The translations under genes and the position numbers were made by a program. Below, in pieces: positions 6,611-39,278 of a DNA stretch of 64,000 nt (the first letter of the stretch is position 1; each line of letters starts with the position of its first letter). Below the pieces are notes generated by a model, which had not been told where the DNA came from, ran no database searches, and saw only the letters and a program-made list of their open reading frames with translations. Source of the stretch: Streptantibioticus cattleyicolor NRRL 8057 = DSM 46488. Lineage in GTDB: Bacteria > Actinomycetota > Actinomycetes > Streptomycetales > Streptomycetaceae. The stretch lies in contig NC_017586.1 of the NCBI RefSeq assembly GCF_000240165.1, forward strand, positions 1,426,001 to 1,490,000. Direction: 5' to 3'.

Positions 6611-8020
6611 ATGTTCCAGAACGCCGACGAGGCCAAGAAGTTCTTGCGGGACGAGGACGTCAAGTTCGTCGACGTCCGGTTCTGCGACCTGCCGGGTGTC
6701 ATGCAGCACTTCACGGTACCGGTGCAGGCGTTCGACCCGTCCGAGGAGCTGGCCTTCGACGGCTCCTCGATCCGCGGCTTCCAGGCCATCCACGAGTCCG
6801 ACATGGCGCTGCGCGCGGACCTGTCCACCGCCCGCGTGGACCCGTTCCGCAAGGACAAGACGCTCAACATCAACTTCTTCATCCACGACCCGATCACCGG
6901 CGAGCAGTACAGCCGCGACCCGCGGAACGTGGCGAAGAAAGCCGAGGCGTACCTGGCCTCCACCGGCATCGCGGACACCGCCTACTTCGGCCCGGAGGCG
7001 GAGTTCTACGTCTTCGACAGCGTCCGCTTCGAGACCAGCGCGAACCAGTCCTTCTACCACATCGACTCCGAGGCCGGCGCCTGGAACACCGGTGCCCTGG
7101 AGGACAACCGCGGCTACAAGGTCCGCTACAAGGGCGGCTACTTCCCGGCCCCGCCGGTCGACCACTTCGCCGACCTGCGCGCCGAGATCTCCCTGGAGCT
7201 GGAGCAGGCCGGGCTCCAGGTCGAGCGCCAGCACCACGAGGTGGGCACGGCCGGCCAGGCGGAGATCAACTACAAGTTCAACACCCTGCTGGCCGCCGCC
7301 GACGACCTGATGCTCTTCAAGTACATCGTCAAGAACGTCGCCTGGCGCAACGGCAAGACCGCCACCTTCATGCCCAAGCCGATCTTCGGTGACAACGGCT
7401 CCGGCATGCACGTCCACCAGTCGCTGTGGAGCGGCGGCGAGCCGCTGTTCTACGACGAGACCGGCTACGCGGGGCTGTCCGACACCGCCCGCTACTACAT
7501 CGGCGGCATCCTCAAGCACGCCCCGTCGCTGCTGGCCTTCACCAACCCGACGGTCAACTCCTACCACCGTCTGGTCCCCGGCTTCGAGGCCCCGGTCAAC
7601 CTGGTCTACTCGCAGCGCAACCGCTCCGCCGCGATGCGCATCCCGATCACCGGCTCCAACCCGAAGGCCAAGCGCGTCGAGTTCCGCGCCCCGGACCCGT
7701 CCAGCAACCCCTACCTGGCCTTCTCCGCCCTCCTGCTGGCCGGCCTGGACGGCGTCAAGAACAAGATCGAGCCGGCCGAGCCGATCGACAAGGACCTCTA
7801 CGAGCTCGCCCCCGAAGAGCACGCCAACGTCCCCCAGGTCCCCACCTCCCTCCCGGCCGTCCTCGAAGCCCTCGAGGCCGACCACGAATACCTCCTCCAG
7901 GGCGGCGTCTTCACCCAGGACCTCATCGAGACCTGGATCGACTACAAGCGCACCAACGAAATCGCCCCCATCCAACTCCGGCCCCACCCGCACGAGTTCG
8001 AGATGTACTTCGACATCTGA
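6611..8020 (+). CDS. glnA: Glutamine synthetase type I (GlnA)
   Basis: It makes glutamine from glutamate, ammonia and ATP as a cytoplasmic dodecamer. The 469-residue protein has the GS beta-grasp ([14 protein letters not shown]), the N-terminal DGSSIRGF motif, the metal/ATP site ([10 protein letters not shown], then [12 protein letters not shown]) and the glutamate-binding [11 protein letters not shown]. The adenylylation tyrosine, Tyr397 in DKDLYEL, is present, marking it as a GSI-beta enzyme controlled by GlnE, which is encoded at 27381-30380. The ATG at 6611 follows GAGGAG. The GlnR box at 6477-6514 supplies transcriptional control. Confidence 0.98.
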
Positions 8021-33180: not shown

Positions 33181-34935
33181 GTGCCTCAACTTCGTCTCGC
33201 CCTCAATCAGATCGACAGCTGCGTCGGCGACCTCGCCGGGAACACCGAATCGATCGTGCGCTGGACCCGGCACGCGGCCGAGCAGGGCGCGCATCTGATC
33301 GCGTTCCCCGAGATGGCGCTGACCGGTTACCCGGTGGAGGACCTGGCGCTGCGGCCGTCCTTCGTCGAGGCGTCCCGGGCCGCGCTCACCGCGCTGGCCG
33401 CCCGGCTCGCCGCGGAGGGGCTCGGCGAGGTCCCGGTGGTCGTCGGCTACCTCGACCGCAGCGAGAAGGCGCAGCCGCGGTACGGGCAGCCGGCCGGCGC
33501 CCCGCAGAACGCCGCCGCCGTCCTCCACCGCGGTGGCGTGGTGCTCTCCTTCGCCAAGCACCACCTGCCCAACTACGGCGTCTTCGACGAGTTCCGCTAC
33601 TTCGTGCCCGGCGACACCCTGCCGGTGATCCGGGTGCGCGGCGTGGACGTGGCGCTGGCGATCTGCGAGGACCTGTGGCAGGACGGCGGCCGGGTGCCCG
33701 CCACCCGTACCGCCGGGGCCGGGCTGCTGCTGTCGGTCAACGCCTCGCCGTACGAGGTGGCCAAGGACGACACCCGGCTGGAGCTGGTGCGCAAGCGGGC
33801 CCAGGAGGCCGGCTGCACGCTGGCGTACCTGGCGATGATCGGCGGCCAGGACGAGCTGGTCTTCGACGGGGACTCCATCGTGGTCTCGGCGCAGGGCGAG
33901 GTGATCACCCGGGCCCCGCAGTTCGAGGAGGGGTGCGTCCTGGTCGACCTGGACCTGCCGGCCGCCGCCGCGCAGCCGCCGTCCGGGGTGGCCGACGACG
34001 GGCTCACCATCGACCACCGGATCGTCTCGGCCGAACCCCTGCCGCCCTACGAGGCCCAGGTCACCGGCGAACTGGCGGCCCGCCTCGGCGACGACGAGGA
34101 GATCTACACCGCGCTGGTGGTGGGGCTGCGCGCCTACCTGGCCAAGAACGGCTTCCGCAGCGTGCTGATCGGCCTGTCCGGCGGCATCGACTCCGCGCTG
34201 GTCGCCGCCATCGCCTGCGACGCGGTCGGGGCCCGGCACGTGTACGGGGTCTCCATGCCCTCCCGCTACTCCTCGGAGCACTCCAAGGACGACGCGGCGG
34301 AACTGGCACGGCGCACCGGGCTCAACTTCCGTACGGTGCCGATCGGGCCCATGTTCGACGCGTACATGGGCCGGCTCGCGCTGACCGGGCTCGCCGAGGA
34401 GAACCTCCAGGCACGCCTGCGCGGCACCACCCTGATGGCCCTGTCCAACCAGGAGGGCCACCTGGTCCTCGCCCCCGGCAACAAGTCCGAGCTGGCCTGC
34501 GGCTACTCCACGCTCTACGGGGACGCGGTGGGCGGCTTCGCGCCGATCAAGGACGTACTCAAGACCAAGGTCTGGGAACTGGCCCGCTGGCGCAACCACG
34601 CCGCCGCCGAACGCGGCCAGATCCCGCCCGTCCCGGAGAACTCCATCGCCAAACCCCCCTCCGCCGAACTGCGCCCCGGCCAGGTCGACACCGACTCCCT
34701 GCCGGACTACGAACTCCTCGACCGGATCATCGACCTGTACGTCGAGCAGGACCAGGGGTACGAGGCGATCGTGGCGGCGGGGTTCGCACCCGAGACGGTG
34801 ACGCGGGTCCTGCGCCTCGTGGACACGGCGGAGTACAAACGGCGGCAGTACCCGCCGGGTACGAAGATCACCCCCAAGGGCTTCGGCAAGGACCGCCGCC
34901 TCCCGGTGACAAGCCGCTGGCGCGAGGGCGTCTGA
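33181..34935 (+). CDS. nadE: Glutamine-dependent NAD+ synthetase NadE
   Basis: It amidates nicotinic acid adenine dinucleotide to NAD, using glutamine. The 584-residue protein has an N-terminal nitrilase-type glutaminase with the triad Glu44 (FPEMALTGYP), Lys126 (FAKHHLPNYG) and Cys162 (AICEDLW). The C-terminal ATP-pyrophosphatase synthetase domain shows GLSGGIDSALVAAIA near residue 330. The GTG at 33181 fits the start seen in relatives (PQLRLALNQID); an in-frame ATG at 33160 would add seven residues. Its TGA is also the first three bases of the inverted repeat at 34933. Confidence 0.95.
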   Translation: MPQLRLALNQIDSCVGDLAGNTESIVRWTRHAAEQGAHLIAFPEMALTGYPVEDLALRPSFVEASRAALTALAARLAAEGLGEVPVVVGYLDRSEKAQPRYGQPAGAPQNAAAVLHRGGVVLSFAKHHLPNYGVFDEFRYFVPGDTLPVIRVRGVDVALAICEDLWQDGGRVPATRTAGAGLLLSVNASPYEVAKDDTRLELVRKRAQEAGCTLAYLAMIGGQDELVFDGDSIVVSAQGEVITRAPQFEEGCVLVDLDLPAAAAQPPSGVADDGLTIDHRIVSAEPLPPYEAQVTGELAARLGDDEEIYTALVVGLRAYLAKNGFRSVLIGLSGGIDSALVAAIACDAVGARHVYGVSMPSRYSSEHSKDDAAELARRTGLNFRTVPIGPMFDAYMGRLALTGLAEENLQARLRGTTLMALSNQEGHLVLAPGNKSELACGYSTLYGDAVGGFAPIKDVLKTKVWELARWRNHAAAERGQIPPVPENSIAKPPSAELRPGQVDTDSLPDYELLDRIIDLYVEQDQGYEAIVAAGFAPETVTRVLRLVDTAEYKRRQYPPGTKITPKGFGKDRRLPVTSRWREGV

Positions 34936-35539
34936 CGGTTCGCTCGCGCTGGCGGTCAGCCATTACGTGGTGGCCGGTTCGCCCGTTTCAGGGTTCCGGG
35001 GTGGCCCCCTTCACCCCTGCCCGGTGGGTGGTTGGTGAGGTTTTGGTTTGGTTCGGCACCGGGTGGGTTCGCCTACTGCCGGTACGGGGTCGGGGGCGCG
35101 CCGGGGGTGACTCCTCGCTCCAGGTATCCGCCACAGCTTGGCTCCGGCTACTGGGTCGCTGCGGGGACACCCCCGGCACACCCCCTTGTGCCGTCGTGCG
35201 GGTGCCTCTCTTCGCGGGTGGGGTGAGAAAGGAGGTTGGGGTCACCCCGATCTTTTTCTCACCCCCTCCGTGCCGCAGCGCGGAACGCAACAGAACGGGG
35301 GCGTGCAGGGGTGTCCCCGCAGCGACCCAGCGGGGCGGCGGAGAGCCGACAACGAAACGCGGAGCGAGGAGTCACCCCGGAGGGCCCCCGGAAACCCAGG
35401 AAGACAGTGCGCATCCCGCACTGTACGAACACAGCCACGGGTGGGTGGGGGGAAACAGCTGTGACGCCAGCCAGGACGAAACGAAATCGGGCGCACCCCG
35501 AGGAGGTAATGGCTGACCGCCAGCGCGAGCGAACCGTCA
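34933..35539. repeat. About 600-bp imperfect palindrome between convergent genes
   Basis: The ends 34933-34965 and 35507-35539 are a perfect 33-bp inverted repeat. Further perfect inner pairs are 35104-35121 with 35361-35378 (18 bp), 35151-35173 with 35308-35330 (23 bp) and 35220-35230 with 35255-35265 (11 bp). All are centred within 35236-35243. The left end coincides with the nadE stop codon and the right end with the stop of the MFS gene. No gene lies inside. It resembles a long-hairpin or MITE-like element, or an extreme bidirectional terminator. Confidence 0.85.
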
Positions 35540-35604
35540 GCCACGACGAGACGGGATCGGGCGCGCCCGGGGGAGGTAATCGCTGACGCCAGCGGGAGCG
35601 GACC
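35475..35604. repeat. Two tandem copies of a 70-bp unit at the 3' end of the MFS gene
   Basis: Starting from GACGAAAC at 35475 and GACGAGAC at 35545 the sequence repeats at a 70-bp period, sharing ATCGGGCGC and GGAGGTAAT words and ending in GCCAGCGnGAGCG. The second copy encodes the last residues of the MFS protein (read antisense), so repeat DNA has entered its 3' end. Confidence 0.7.
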
Positions 35605-36739
35605 GGTCGAGGCGGCCGGAGACGGCCGCGACGGCGAGACCGGTTACCGCGAGGGCGGAGCCGACAAGCGCCGGCGACGTCCACCCCCACCCCGCACTGA
35701 TCGCCACCCCTCCCACCCACGCCCCACCCGCGTTGGCCAGGTTGAACGCCGCCTGGTTGGAGGCCGAGGCGAGGGTCGGGGCGTGCCGGGCCTTGCGCAT
35801 CACCATCATCTGGAGCGGGGTGGTGGTGGCGAAGCCCACCATGCCCAGCAGGACGACGGCGACCAGCGCGGTGACCTCGTGGCGTACCGCCACCGGGAAG
35901 AGCAGCAGGACGGCGGCGAGCGCGGCGAGCGAGCCGTAGAGGGTGGGCCGCAGCGCGTGGTCGGTGAGCGGGCCGGCGATCAGCGCGCCGAGGGTCATGC
36001 CGACCCCGAAGAGCGCCAGCACGAAGGTGACCGTGGTCGCGGTGACTCCGGTGACCTCGGTCATCATCGAGGCGAGGTAGCTGTAGACGGCGAACACCCC
36101 GGCGAAGCCGAAGACCGTGGTGACCAGGGCGAGCAGCACGTGCCGGTCGCGCAGCGCGCCGGCCTCGCCGCGCAGGCCGCCGACGCGTTCGGCCGGCAGC
36201 ACGGGCACCAGCGCGGCCAGGGCGGCCACCGCGACCACGCCGATCACGGCGACCACCGCGAAGGTGGCCCGCCAGCCGACGTGCTGGCCCAGCAGCGTGG
36301 CCACCGGTACGCCGAGCACGTTGGCCACGGTCAGGCCCAGGAACATCCGGGCCACCGCGCGGGCGCCGCGTCGTTCTTCCACCAGGCGGGCGGCGACCAC
36401 GGCGCCGACGCCGAAGAAGGCGCCGTGCGGCAGCCCGGCGAGGAACCGGGCGGCGGCCAGCGTGCCGAAGCCGGGGGCGACGGCGGAGGCCAGGTTGCCG
36501 ACGGTGAACAGCGCCATGAGGAGCACCAGCATCCGGCGGCGCGGCAGCCGGGCGCCGAGCGCGGTGAGCAGCGGGGCGCCGACCACCACGCCGAGCGCGT
36601 AGGCGGAGACCAGGTAGCCGGCGGTGGGGACGGAGGTGTGCAGGTCGGCCGCCACGTCGGGCAGCAGGCCCATCATGACGAACTCGGTCGTGCCGATGCC
36701 GAAAGCACTCATGGCCAATGCGAGCAGGGCCACAGGCAT
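35537..36739 (-). CDS. MFS drug/sugar efflux transporter (DHA1, AraJ-like)
   Basis: This 400-residue transporter has 12 predicted helices and the DHA1 pattern: MSAFGIGTTEFVMMGLLPDV in helix 1 and a GARLPRRRMLVLLM loop (motif A) between helices 2 and 3. The GGEGA-type exporters of arabinose or chloramphenicol share this start. The ATG at 36739 follows GGAGGT. The last 20 residues (GVSDYLPRARPIPSRRG) are hydrophilic and are encoded by the tandem repeat, so the ancestral end was probably earlier. The substrate is unknown. Confidence 0.88.
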   Translation of the reverse strand: MPVALLALAMSAFGIGTTEFVMMGLLPDVAADLHTSVPTAGYLVSAYALGVVVGAPLLTALGARLPRRRMLVLLMALFTVGNLASAVAPGFGTLAAARFLAGLPHGAFFGVGAVVAARLVEERRGARAVARMFLGLTVANVLGVPVATLLGQHVGWRATFAVVAVIGVVAVAALAALVPVLPAERVGGLRGEAGALRDRHVLLALVTTVFGFAGVFAVYSYLASMMTEVTGVTATTVTFVLALFGVGMTLGALIAGPLTDHALRPTLYGSLAALAAVLLLFPVAVRHEVTALVAVVLLGMVGFATTTPLQMMVMRKARHAPTLASASNQAAFNLANAGGAWVGGVAISAGWGWTSPALVGSALAVTGLAVAAVSGRLDRSAPAGVSDYLPRARPIPSRRG

Positions 36740-38294: not shown

Positions 38295-39176
38295 ATGACG
38301 CACGTTCAGGCTGCCGCAAAACCTTCCGGTGCTCCCTCCTCCGACAGCAGCAAGGCGCTGTACGGGGGCACGGGCACCCGGCGCGTCACCGTCCGCGACA
38401 TCGCCGCCGCCAAGCGCCGCGGTGAGAAGTGGCCCATGCTGACCGCCTACGACGCGATGACCGCGTCGGTCTTCGACGAGGCGGGCATCCCCGTCCTGCT
38501 GGTGGGCGACTCGATGGGCAACTGCCACCTCGGGTACGACAGCACCGTGCCGGTGACGATGGACGAGATCACCATGTTGTCGGCCGCGGTGGTGCGCGGC
38601 ACCAGCCGGGCGCTGGTCGTGGCCGACCTGCCGTTCGGCGCGTACCAGGAGGGCGCCGTGCAGGCGCTGCGCAACGCCACCCGGCTGGTGAAGGAGGCCG
38701 GGGTGGGCGCGGTGAAGCTGGAGGGCGGCGAGCGCTCGGCCCACCAGATCGAGCTGCTGGTCTCCTCCGGCATCCCGGTGATGGCGCACATCGGGCTCAC
38801 CCCGCAGTCGGTCAACGCCTTCGGCGGCTACCCGGTGCAGGGGCGCGGCGAGGAGGCCGCCCAGCAGTTGCGGCGGGACGCCAAGGCGGTGCAGGACGCC
38901 GGGGCGTTCGCGGTGGTGCTGGAGCTGGTCCCGGCCGAGCTGGCCGCCGAGGTGACGGCGGCGCTGCACGTGCCGACGGTGGGCATCGGGGCCGGTCCTG
39001 ACTGCGACGCGCAGGTGCTGGTGTGGACGGACATGGCGGGCATGACCGGCGGCCGGACGCCGCGCTTCGTCAAGCGGTACGCGGCCCTGCGCGAGGTGCT
39101 CGGCGACGCGGCGAAGGCGTTCGCCGAGGACGTGGTCTCGGCCGCCTACCCGGCCGAGGAGCACAGCTTCCACTGA
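38295..39176 (+). CDS. panB: 3-methyl-2-oxobutanoate hydroxymethyltransferase PanB
   Basis: PanB makes ketopantoate, the first committed step of pantothenate and coenzyme A synthesis, using methylene-tetrahydrofolate. The 293-residue protein shows the family landmarks MLTAYDAMTASVFDEAGIPV, LVGDSMGNCHLGYDSTVPVT (metal-binding aspartate), AVKLEGGER and MAHIGLTPQSVNAFGGY. The N-terminal 30 residues are an extra low-complexity leader common in actinomycetes. The ATG at 38295 follows CAGGAG. It is monocistronic, with a terminator 21 bases downstream. Confidence 0.96.
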   Translation: MTHVQAAAKPSGAPSSDSSKALYGGTGTRRVTVRDIAAAKRRGEKWPMLTAYDAMTASVFDEAGIPVLLVGDSMGNCHLGYDSTVPVTMDEITMLSAAVVRGTSRALVVADLPFGAYQEGAVQALRNATRLVKEAGVGAVKLEGGERSAHQIELLVSSGIPVMAHIGLTPQSVNAFGGYPVQGRGEEAAQQLRRDAKAVQDAGAFAVVLELVPAELAAEVTAALHVPTVGIGAGPDCDAQVLVWTDMAGMTGGRTPRFVKRYAALREVLGDAAKAFAEDVVSAAYPAEEHSFH

Positions 39177-39196
39177 CCCCGCCGGGGTGAGCAGCA

Positions 39197-39256
39197 CGAC
39201 GGCTTCCGCCGTACGTCCGGGTGTCCTGTTCCGGCGACGTACGGCGGGAGCCGTCG
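39197..39256 (+). terminator. panB terminator
   Basis: CGACGGCTTCCGCCGTACGT (39197-39216) pairs with 39237-39256 over 20 bases with a single G-T wobble, around a 20-base loop, and is followed by TTCG. Confidence 0.7.
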
Positions 39257-39278
39257 TTCGCTCGACCCGGGCGGTGTG

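Follow-up and report, generated by a model that had tools for sequence, protein, structure and literature searches.

A multicopy intergenic repeat of facing hairpin cassettes in Streptantibioticus cattleyicolor, with related hairpins in other streptomycetes

The REP/BIME sequences of Escherichia coli are dispersed intergenic hairpins that lie near the 3' ends of genes and are joined in inverted order into mosaics. A REP unit is about 20–65 nt long and carries a GTAG or GGAG tetranucleotide at the foot of its hairpin; gene conversion was reportedly proposed for the enterobacterial REP/BIME by Higgins et al. in 1988. Imperfect hairpins also characterise the attC sites of integrons, which combine a conserved base with unpaired bases and a variable top, and which are recognised as folded single strands. 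Further, larger stem-loop repeats, the Ype, Efa, NEMIS, ERIC and Bor families, are described in one survey as intergenic and multicopy, several of them lying close to gene 3' ends (PMC1590033).

The repeat described here was found in a 64,000-nucleotide stretch of the genome of Streptantibioticus cattleyicolor NRRL 8057 (contig NC_017586.1, positions 1,426,001–1,490,000), hereafter the window, whose first letter is position 1. It lies between two convergent genes, both recovered by our home-made gene caller: nadE (33181–34935, plus strand), which encodes an NAD synthase with a CN_hydrolase domain (PF02540, 1e-65; PF00795, 1.7e-28), and an MFS transporter gene (35537–36733, minus strand; PF07690, 3.2e-45), the ATG open reading frame of which runs to 36739. 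A palindrome of ∼600 bp had been noted at this junction in a sequence-only reading, and inverted-repeat search and RNA folding confirm that it is real; the predicted fold of 34925–35545 reaches −409 kcal/mol, compared with −309 ± 7 kcal/mol for 20 shuffled sequences (z −13.7). Its outer arms are indeed perfect, with 100% complementarity between 34932–34966 and 35506–35540, and are 35 nt in length rather than the 33 nt first given. The TGA codons of nadE (34933–34935) and of the MFS gene (35537–35539, minus strand) both fall inside these arms, as had been seen, but judged by its repeat content the element continues past the MFS stop. Perfect inner pairs of 18 nt (35104–35121 with 35361–35378) and 23 nt (35151–35173 with 35308–35330) exist as described, the former as part of longer 39-nt arms at 77% and the latter of 40-nt arms at 80%, whereas a supposed 11-nt pair was not recovered as such, the pair nearest the centre being one of 16 nt at 88% (35215–35230 with 35255–35270). 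The common centre attributed to all these pairs is only approximate; the outer arms are centred at 35236 and the inner arms at 35240.5–35242.5.

Read along the plus strand, the window copy begins with a left end module that starts with the left outer arm, the remainder of this module and the left outer segment together occupying 34967–35088 and being well conserved among copies from about 35014 onwards. The left hairpin cassette follows (35089–35188), with a basal stem formed by 35092–35114 and 35163–35185 and a variable insert at about 35122–35151. A centre (35189–35292), which leaves 144 nt between the detected cassette motifs, separates it from the right cassette (35293–35393, minus strand), which faces the left one. 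In the right outer segment is a small hairpin, ACAGTGCG/CGCACTGT (35404–35424); the surrounding 27-nt pattern, when up to 3 mismatches are allowed, occurs 29 times in the genome. The right end module (35465–35540), identified by direct and inverted repeat matches, includes the right outer arm and is doubled; its second copy (35535–35587, 83% identical to 35465–35517) runs into the MFS coding sequence from its 3' end and accounts for roughly the final 16 residues of that protein. The window has no Rfam 15 match at gathering scores, and seven related loci have none at E ≤ 0.5. Elsewhere in the window, a 42-nt inverted repeat (79%) at 39176–39277 extends from the last base of an open reading frame that we take to be panB-like to the next reading frame; it is likely to be an ordinary intergenic hairpin.

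A search of the two contigs of the S. cattleyicolor genome, C2 (6,282,967 bases) and C1 (1,812,548 bases), establishes firmly that the element is a multicopy hairpin repeat, with about 40 scattered copies. The 28-nt pattern of the left cassette, at up to 3 mismatches, occurs at 42 places, all on C2 and none on C1 (p = 2.4e-5 under uniform placement over both contigs), with none for the reversed control, and exact matches to the cassette motif number 84, 42 in each direction, again with none for the control. Both cassettes are present in 40 of the 42 copies, that of the window included, with ends of varying extent. Of the two remaining places, one (L149) has just a left half and the other (L150) an internally deleted copy; L149 is also counted, with L044, L056, L151 and L152, among the additional diverged or partial copies. 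One copy, L067, is split by a transposase gene (L067:4690–5451; DDE_Tnp_1, HTH_Tnp_4). The scored copies are 81–92% identical to that of the window. The element is more than an ordinary terminator, as the sequence-only reading held. Long palindromes are prone to misassembly, but 40 two-half copies with one common architecture, different flanks and about 8–19% divergence from the window copy, together with homologues in other genomes, make it virtually inconceivable that the palindrome is an assembly artefact or a fresh, one-off inverted duplication. A plasmid-borne homologue was also sought; the one match in the plasmid records, which may omit S. cattleyicolor, has 8% coverage and is likely to be due to chance.

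Each copy consists of two facing copies of one hairpin cassette of ∼100 nt, with a centre between them and end modules outside, so that the palindrome was correctly read as an inverted pair. In the S. cattleyicolor copies the basal stem of the cassette is nearly invariant and the insert of ∼33 nt is variable; the cassette also has an asymmetric internal loop, with TC on one side and TGC on the other. The outer ends differ between copies. The inserts fall into 28 distinct alleles on the left and 30 on the right, 3 of them identical between the arms. Homogenisation from arm to arm within a copy was considered and rejected, the similarity of left to right insert within copies (0.740) being no greater than that of permuted pairs (0.733; p = 0.35). 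Pairing between the two halves shows no covariation (r2 of 0.028 for mirror sites and 0.031 for other left–right pairs of sites), and the 600-bp hairpin therefore looks like a by-product of two facing hairpins of ∼100 nt.

The orientation of neighbouring cassettes, defined as those less than 450 nt apart, was read with an orientation-diagnostic pattern, as a looser cassette pattern matches the hairpin in both orientations and is unreliable for this purpose. Overall, 60 neighbouring pairs are facing, one is direct and none is back-to-back, although most of the facing pairs are copies within one genome and so are not independent: S. cattleyicolor contributes 39 (from 44 loci), genome G191 contributes 11 (from 14 loci), and a set of 50 loci (L248–L297, from 20 genomes by count) contributes 10, in G006, G031, G117, G141, G066 and G153, as well as the direct pair. 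The 24 loci from genus g13 contain no neighbouring pairs. Where both cassettes of an S. cattleyicolor copy pass the diagnostic pattern (39 copies) their spacing is 144–148 nt, and in several genomes the spacing is specific to the lineage. Locus L293 has a back-to-back pair at a greater distance, 1.7 kb, with an intervening reading frame that on visual inspection resembles a hydrolase rather than a transposase.

Cassettes of this kind also occur in other streptomycetes. An initial search of relatives gave matches at E ≤ 1 in 60 of 61 genomes, mostly short, and only L012 and L019 of the 13 loci read from it looked cassette-like. The covariance model R1, built from 29 sequences with 17 base pairs and without the inner stem, matches 26 of the 200 family genomes, S. 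cattleyicolor included, a distribution that is a lower bound given the strict filters and the 20 candidates scored per genome. A 76-nt motif match that recurs in many genomes of genus g9 is probably coding and was not counted. Single cassettes lie between hemD and hemB in three genomes (G138, G102 and G117; loci L251, L259 and L260) and beside hemB in a fourth (L275 in G078); the inner stem of L259 (G102) differs from those of the other three at compensated positions. Immediately downstream of nadE, S. ferralitis carries a different repetitive stretch rich in G+C (L069, about 6765–7150); a GGGGCGCGGGGAACTGCGCGAC module within it is also present near cassettes of G105 and, in reverse complement, of G074.

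The basal stem is nearly invariant across genera, and in an alignment of S. cattleyicolor and genus-g13 cassettes (A1) just one of 17 pairs has a double change (covariation term −0.11), a negligible signal because the stem hardly varies. Covariation was shown for the inner stem in the cassettes of relatives, not for the inner part of S. cattleyicolor's own. Among 22 chosen relatives' cassettes, 21 of them distinct, tested against a structure drawn from these same sequences, double changes occur at 9 of the 12 inner pairs and the inner helix is 79.0% paired. Over the whole structure 87.1% of cells are paired, compared with 77.8% in shuffled sequences (reached in 0 of 500 shuffles) and at most 58.4% when the structure is slid, and 52 cells are double-changed where shuffling gives 18.5 (0 of 500). 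Two further measures are weak: the number of pairs with a double change is 11 against 8.8 (37 of 500 shuffles as high) and that of further pair types 26 against 23.4 (62 of 500). At least 7 of the 12 pairs can form in 48 of 68 distinct inserts (L224–L237 and L248–L297), and among these 48, which were kept for the pairing statistics because they pair, the inner stem is largely genome-specific.

This near-invariance of the basal stem across genera, the facing geometry and the confinement of the repeat to C2, where copies span 0.30–5.55 Mb of 6.28 Mb, would all suit a chromosome-organising or recombination site with a putative dedicated binding protein. Such a site is nevertheless improbable, given that the copies are irregularly spaced, with one gap of 870 kb, that both orientations are used alike (20 forward and 22 reverse for the left cassette), and that 174 of the 200 family genomes have no match to the model under strict filters.

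The sequence-only reading suggested a MITE-like element. A MITE would be a non-autonomous DNA transposon moved in trans, with either the facing cassettes or the end modules as terminal inverted repeats. The facing inverted repeats are multicopy, and their spacing is lineage-specific in several genomes; moreover, the stops of nadE and the MFS gene are only 97 bp apart in S. parmotrematis, with no element between them, although the gene ends differ there and the insertion point is therefore not exact. No consistent target-site duplication, however, is present in the 14 copies with both end modules, assuming these modules to be the true ends: nine of these have no flank repeat, and in the others the longest measures 3 (three copies), 4 or 7 (one copy each), for a mean of 1.4 compared with 0.8 for random. 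Of 136 families in the flanking proteins of S. cattleyicolor (86 of 94 scanned), the 25 commonest include no transposase, and neither do the 25 commonest in those of its relatives (116 of 140 scanned); the one known transposase gene is the DDE_Tnp_1 reading frame that splits L067, which was scanned apart from the other flanking proteins. As the outer ends also vary between copies and many relatives' cassettes have no detected partner, we regard a MITE in the strict sense as rather unlikely. Mobilisation of a REP element by a RAYT/Y1 transposase is very improbable; the repeats resemble REP/BIME in being intergenic mosaic hairpins at 3' ends, but PF01797, the Y1/RAYT transposase family, has no match in the S. 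cattleyicolor genome, and elsewhere it matches in 2 of 19 searched carrier genomes as against 4 of 19 genomes without a model match.

The convergent setting of the window copy is not general. Among the 40 copies whose best match exceeds 450 nt, as classified with the home-made gene caller, 22 lie between tandem, 10 between convergent and 8 between divergent genes, proportions close to those of the background gaps (182, 52 and 55), and a preference for convergent genes was accordingly rejected. Their position relative to gene ends is more distinctive: elements of at least 400 nt lie a median of 15 bp from the neighbouring gene where they face its 3' end (n = 45), but 123 bp where they face its 5' end (n = 39). 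This proximity to stop codons is consistent with a selected bidirectional terminator or mRNA-end stabiliser, in which the facing pair would give the same hairpin to transcripts from either side. It follows from the facing architecture that such transcripts meet a sense cassette first; the predicted folds are very stable, and 34800–35700 contains three weak terminator-like sites, two of them inside the element, where 0.6 are expected. The 8 long copies between divergent genes do not fit this role, and the relatives' cassettes show little strand bias. In 71 cassettes from 22 other genomes, taken from the R1 matches with those at contig edges and some others left out, 27 are co-directional with tandem genes and 20 antisense to them, with 18 convergent and 6 divergent; when cassettes whose partner was detected by the loose pattern are set aside, the numbers for the remaining 62 are 23, 19, 15 and 5. 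A strand-specific RNA element was rejected on the same tandem counts. Mismatches at inner-stem positions 1–11, in sequences that are not independent, are about as commonly C-A/A-C (13) as G-T/T-G (9), and so give no sign of a sense-RNA bias. Selection as a terminator or stabiliser is thus a possible but doubtful account of the repeat.

The copies themselves are mosaics. Alignment of 40 copies gives 426 core columns: 249 are the same in every copy, 49 are deviant in a single copy, and many carry common alternative alleles at intermediate frequency. The haplotypes of successive blocks combine nearly freely, with exceptions such as L038 and L046, which have all nine blocks in common. Linkage across 80 sites falls steeply with distance, with r2 values of 0.447 at 1–3 bp, 0.239 at 4–10 bp, 0.217 at 11–20 bp and 0.067 at 21–40 bp, beyond which it is 0.027 (41–80 bp), 0.036 (81–160 bp) and 0.027 further away (0.026 when shuffled). 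A mosaic scale of less than 40 bp is shorter than expected from ordinary bacterial recombination. Alternatively, the block haplotypes could arise if each block were restricted to a few permissible variants.

Comparison of the S. cattleyicolor copies with the 24 genus-g13 cassette loci identifies few firmly shared loci: for two of them both flanks agree, for one the evidence is an inversion junction and for one it is a single flank. Both flanking genes of L042 are found at a cassette locus of S. ferralitis (L243), and those of L053 at cassette loci of S. ferralitis (L245) and genome G034 (L167). For L063 a single flank agrees, with that of L162. At one S. ferralitis cassette (L157) a flank of L039 is joined to a flank of L046, as after an inversion; the two flanking genes of L039 also occur at L166 of Streptomyces sp. 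RPT161, with other genes intervening. The S. cattleyicolor locus L150 and a relative's locus L159 have flanking genes in common, yet their cassettes are on different sides of one of these genes, and this pair was not counted. Within S. cattleyicolor, L039 and L046 (about 4.081 and 4.087 Mb on C2) are oppositely oriented, which would fit an inversion, by recombination between the copies, of the ∼4.5 kb that separates them. At the compared shared loci the best match of each S. cattleyicolor cassette is another of its own (0.97–1.00), whereas the relatives' cassettes at these loci score 0.57–0.83 against them (wrong-strand scores of 0.19 and 0.47 being left out). The presence of a genome's own version at these few loci points to concerted evolution, and we infer that the copies are kept alike by gene conversion; no recombination event was observed. 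Because firm shared loci are few, independent insertion into hotspots may also be their source.

We conclude that the element is probably one copy of a mosaic intergenic palindromic repeat, BIME-like in kind and not tied to a Y1/RAYT enzyme. Its basic unit is the ∼100-nt hairpin cassette, with a near-invariant basal stem, a TC/TGC internal loop and, in most relatives, an inner stem that differs in sequence between lineages but stays paired; in S. cattleyicolor the units come as facing pairs of almost constant spacing, with end modules on either side. The copies may be kept alike by gene conversion over short tracts or by template switching, either of which could occasionally give rise to inversions. 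The hairpin may be selected as a folded strand, in DNA or in RNA of either strand, and a putative protein could recognise it through its invariant base. Sites just after stop codons would be tolerated because promoters are spared, and a repeat placed there may block read-through or protect mRNA ends irrespective of its orientation.

A bolder suggestion, which we offer tentatively, is that the cassettes belong to a hairpin class extending across the Streptomycetaceae, in which a putative protein would read the folded DNA through the invariant stem and TC/TGC loop, the inner stem would act as a type tag and the facing pair as a functional two-part site, and the same machinery would copy blocks of less than ∼40 bp, so homogenising the repeats within a genome. 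In either case, streptomycetes have interspersed hairpin-pair repeats of their own. One stem in these keeps its pairing although its sequence is replaced from lineage to lineage, and the repeats offer a concrete case in which to study how intergenic repeats remain uniform. With about forty dispersed inverted copies in one genome, they could in addition serve as substrates for inversions and assembly breaks.

The hairpin-pair family is apparently undescribed before; no description of facing cassettes, a lineage-specific paired inner stem or mosaicism of very short range was found in open-licence PubMed Central literature. No streptomycete family figures among the stem-loop repeats in the relevant parts of PMC1590033, and the word Streptomyces is absent from the main text of a 2008 follow-up survey (PMC2267715). 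Like the Ype, Efa, NEMIS, ERIC and Bor repeats, the present family is intergenic and multicopy. The closest likeness is in kind to REP/BIME, which likewise consist of palindromic units between genes, close to 3' ends, that are assembled into mosaics, although the streptomycete cassette is larger, at ∼100 nt, has a near-invariant basal stem and a lineage-specific inner stem, occurs as facing pairs whose spacing hardly varies within a genome and, in S. cattleyicolor, is unaccompanied by the Y1 match that would correspond to a RAYT. With MITEs it has in common its short length, copy number and inverted repeats, but it differs in its variable ends, in having neither a consistent target duplication nor a partner transposase that could be found, and in the partnerless cassettes of relatives and the loci common to different species. 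The streptomycete cassette, finally, is like integron attC sites in being an imperfect hairpin with a conserved base, unpaired bases and a variable top, and it may likewise be recognised as a folded strand; this would seem to be a resemblance only.
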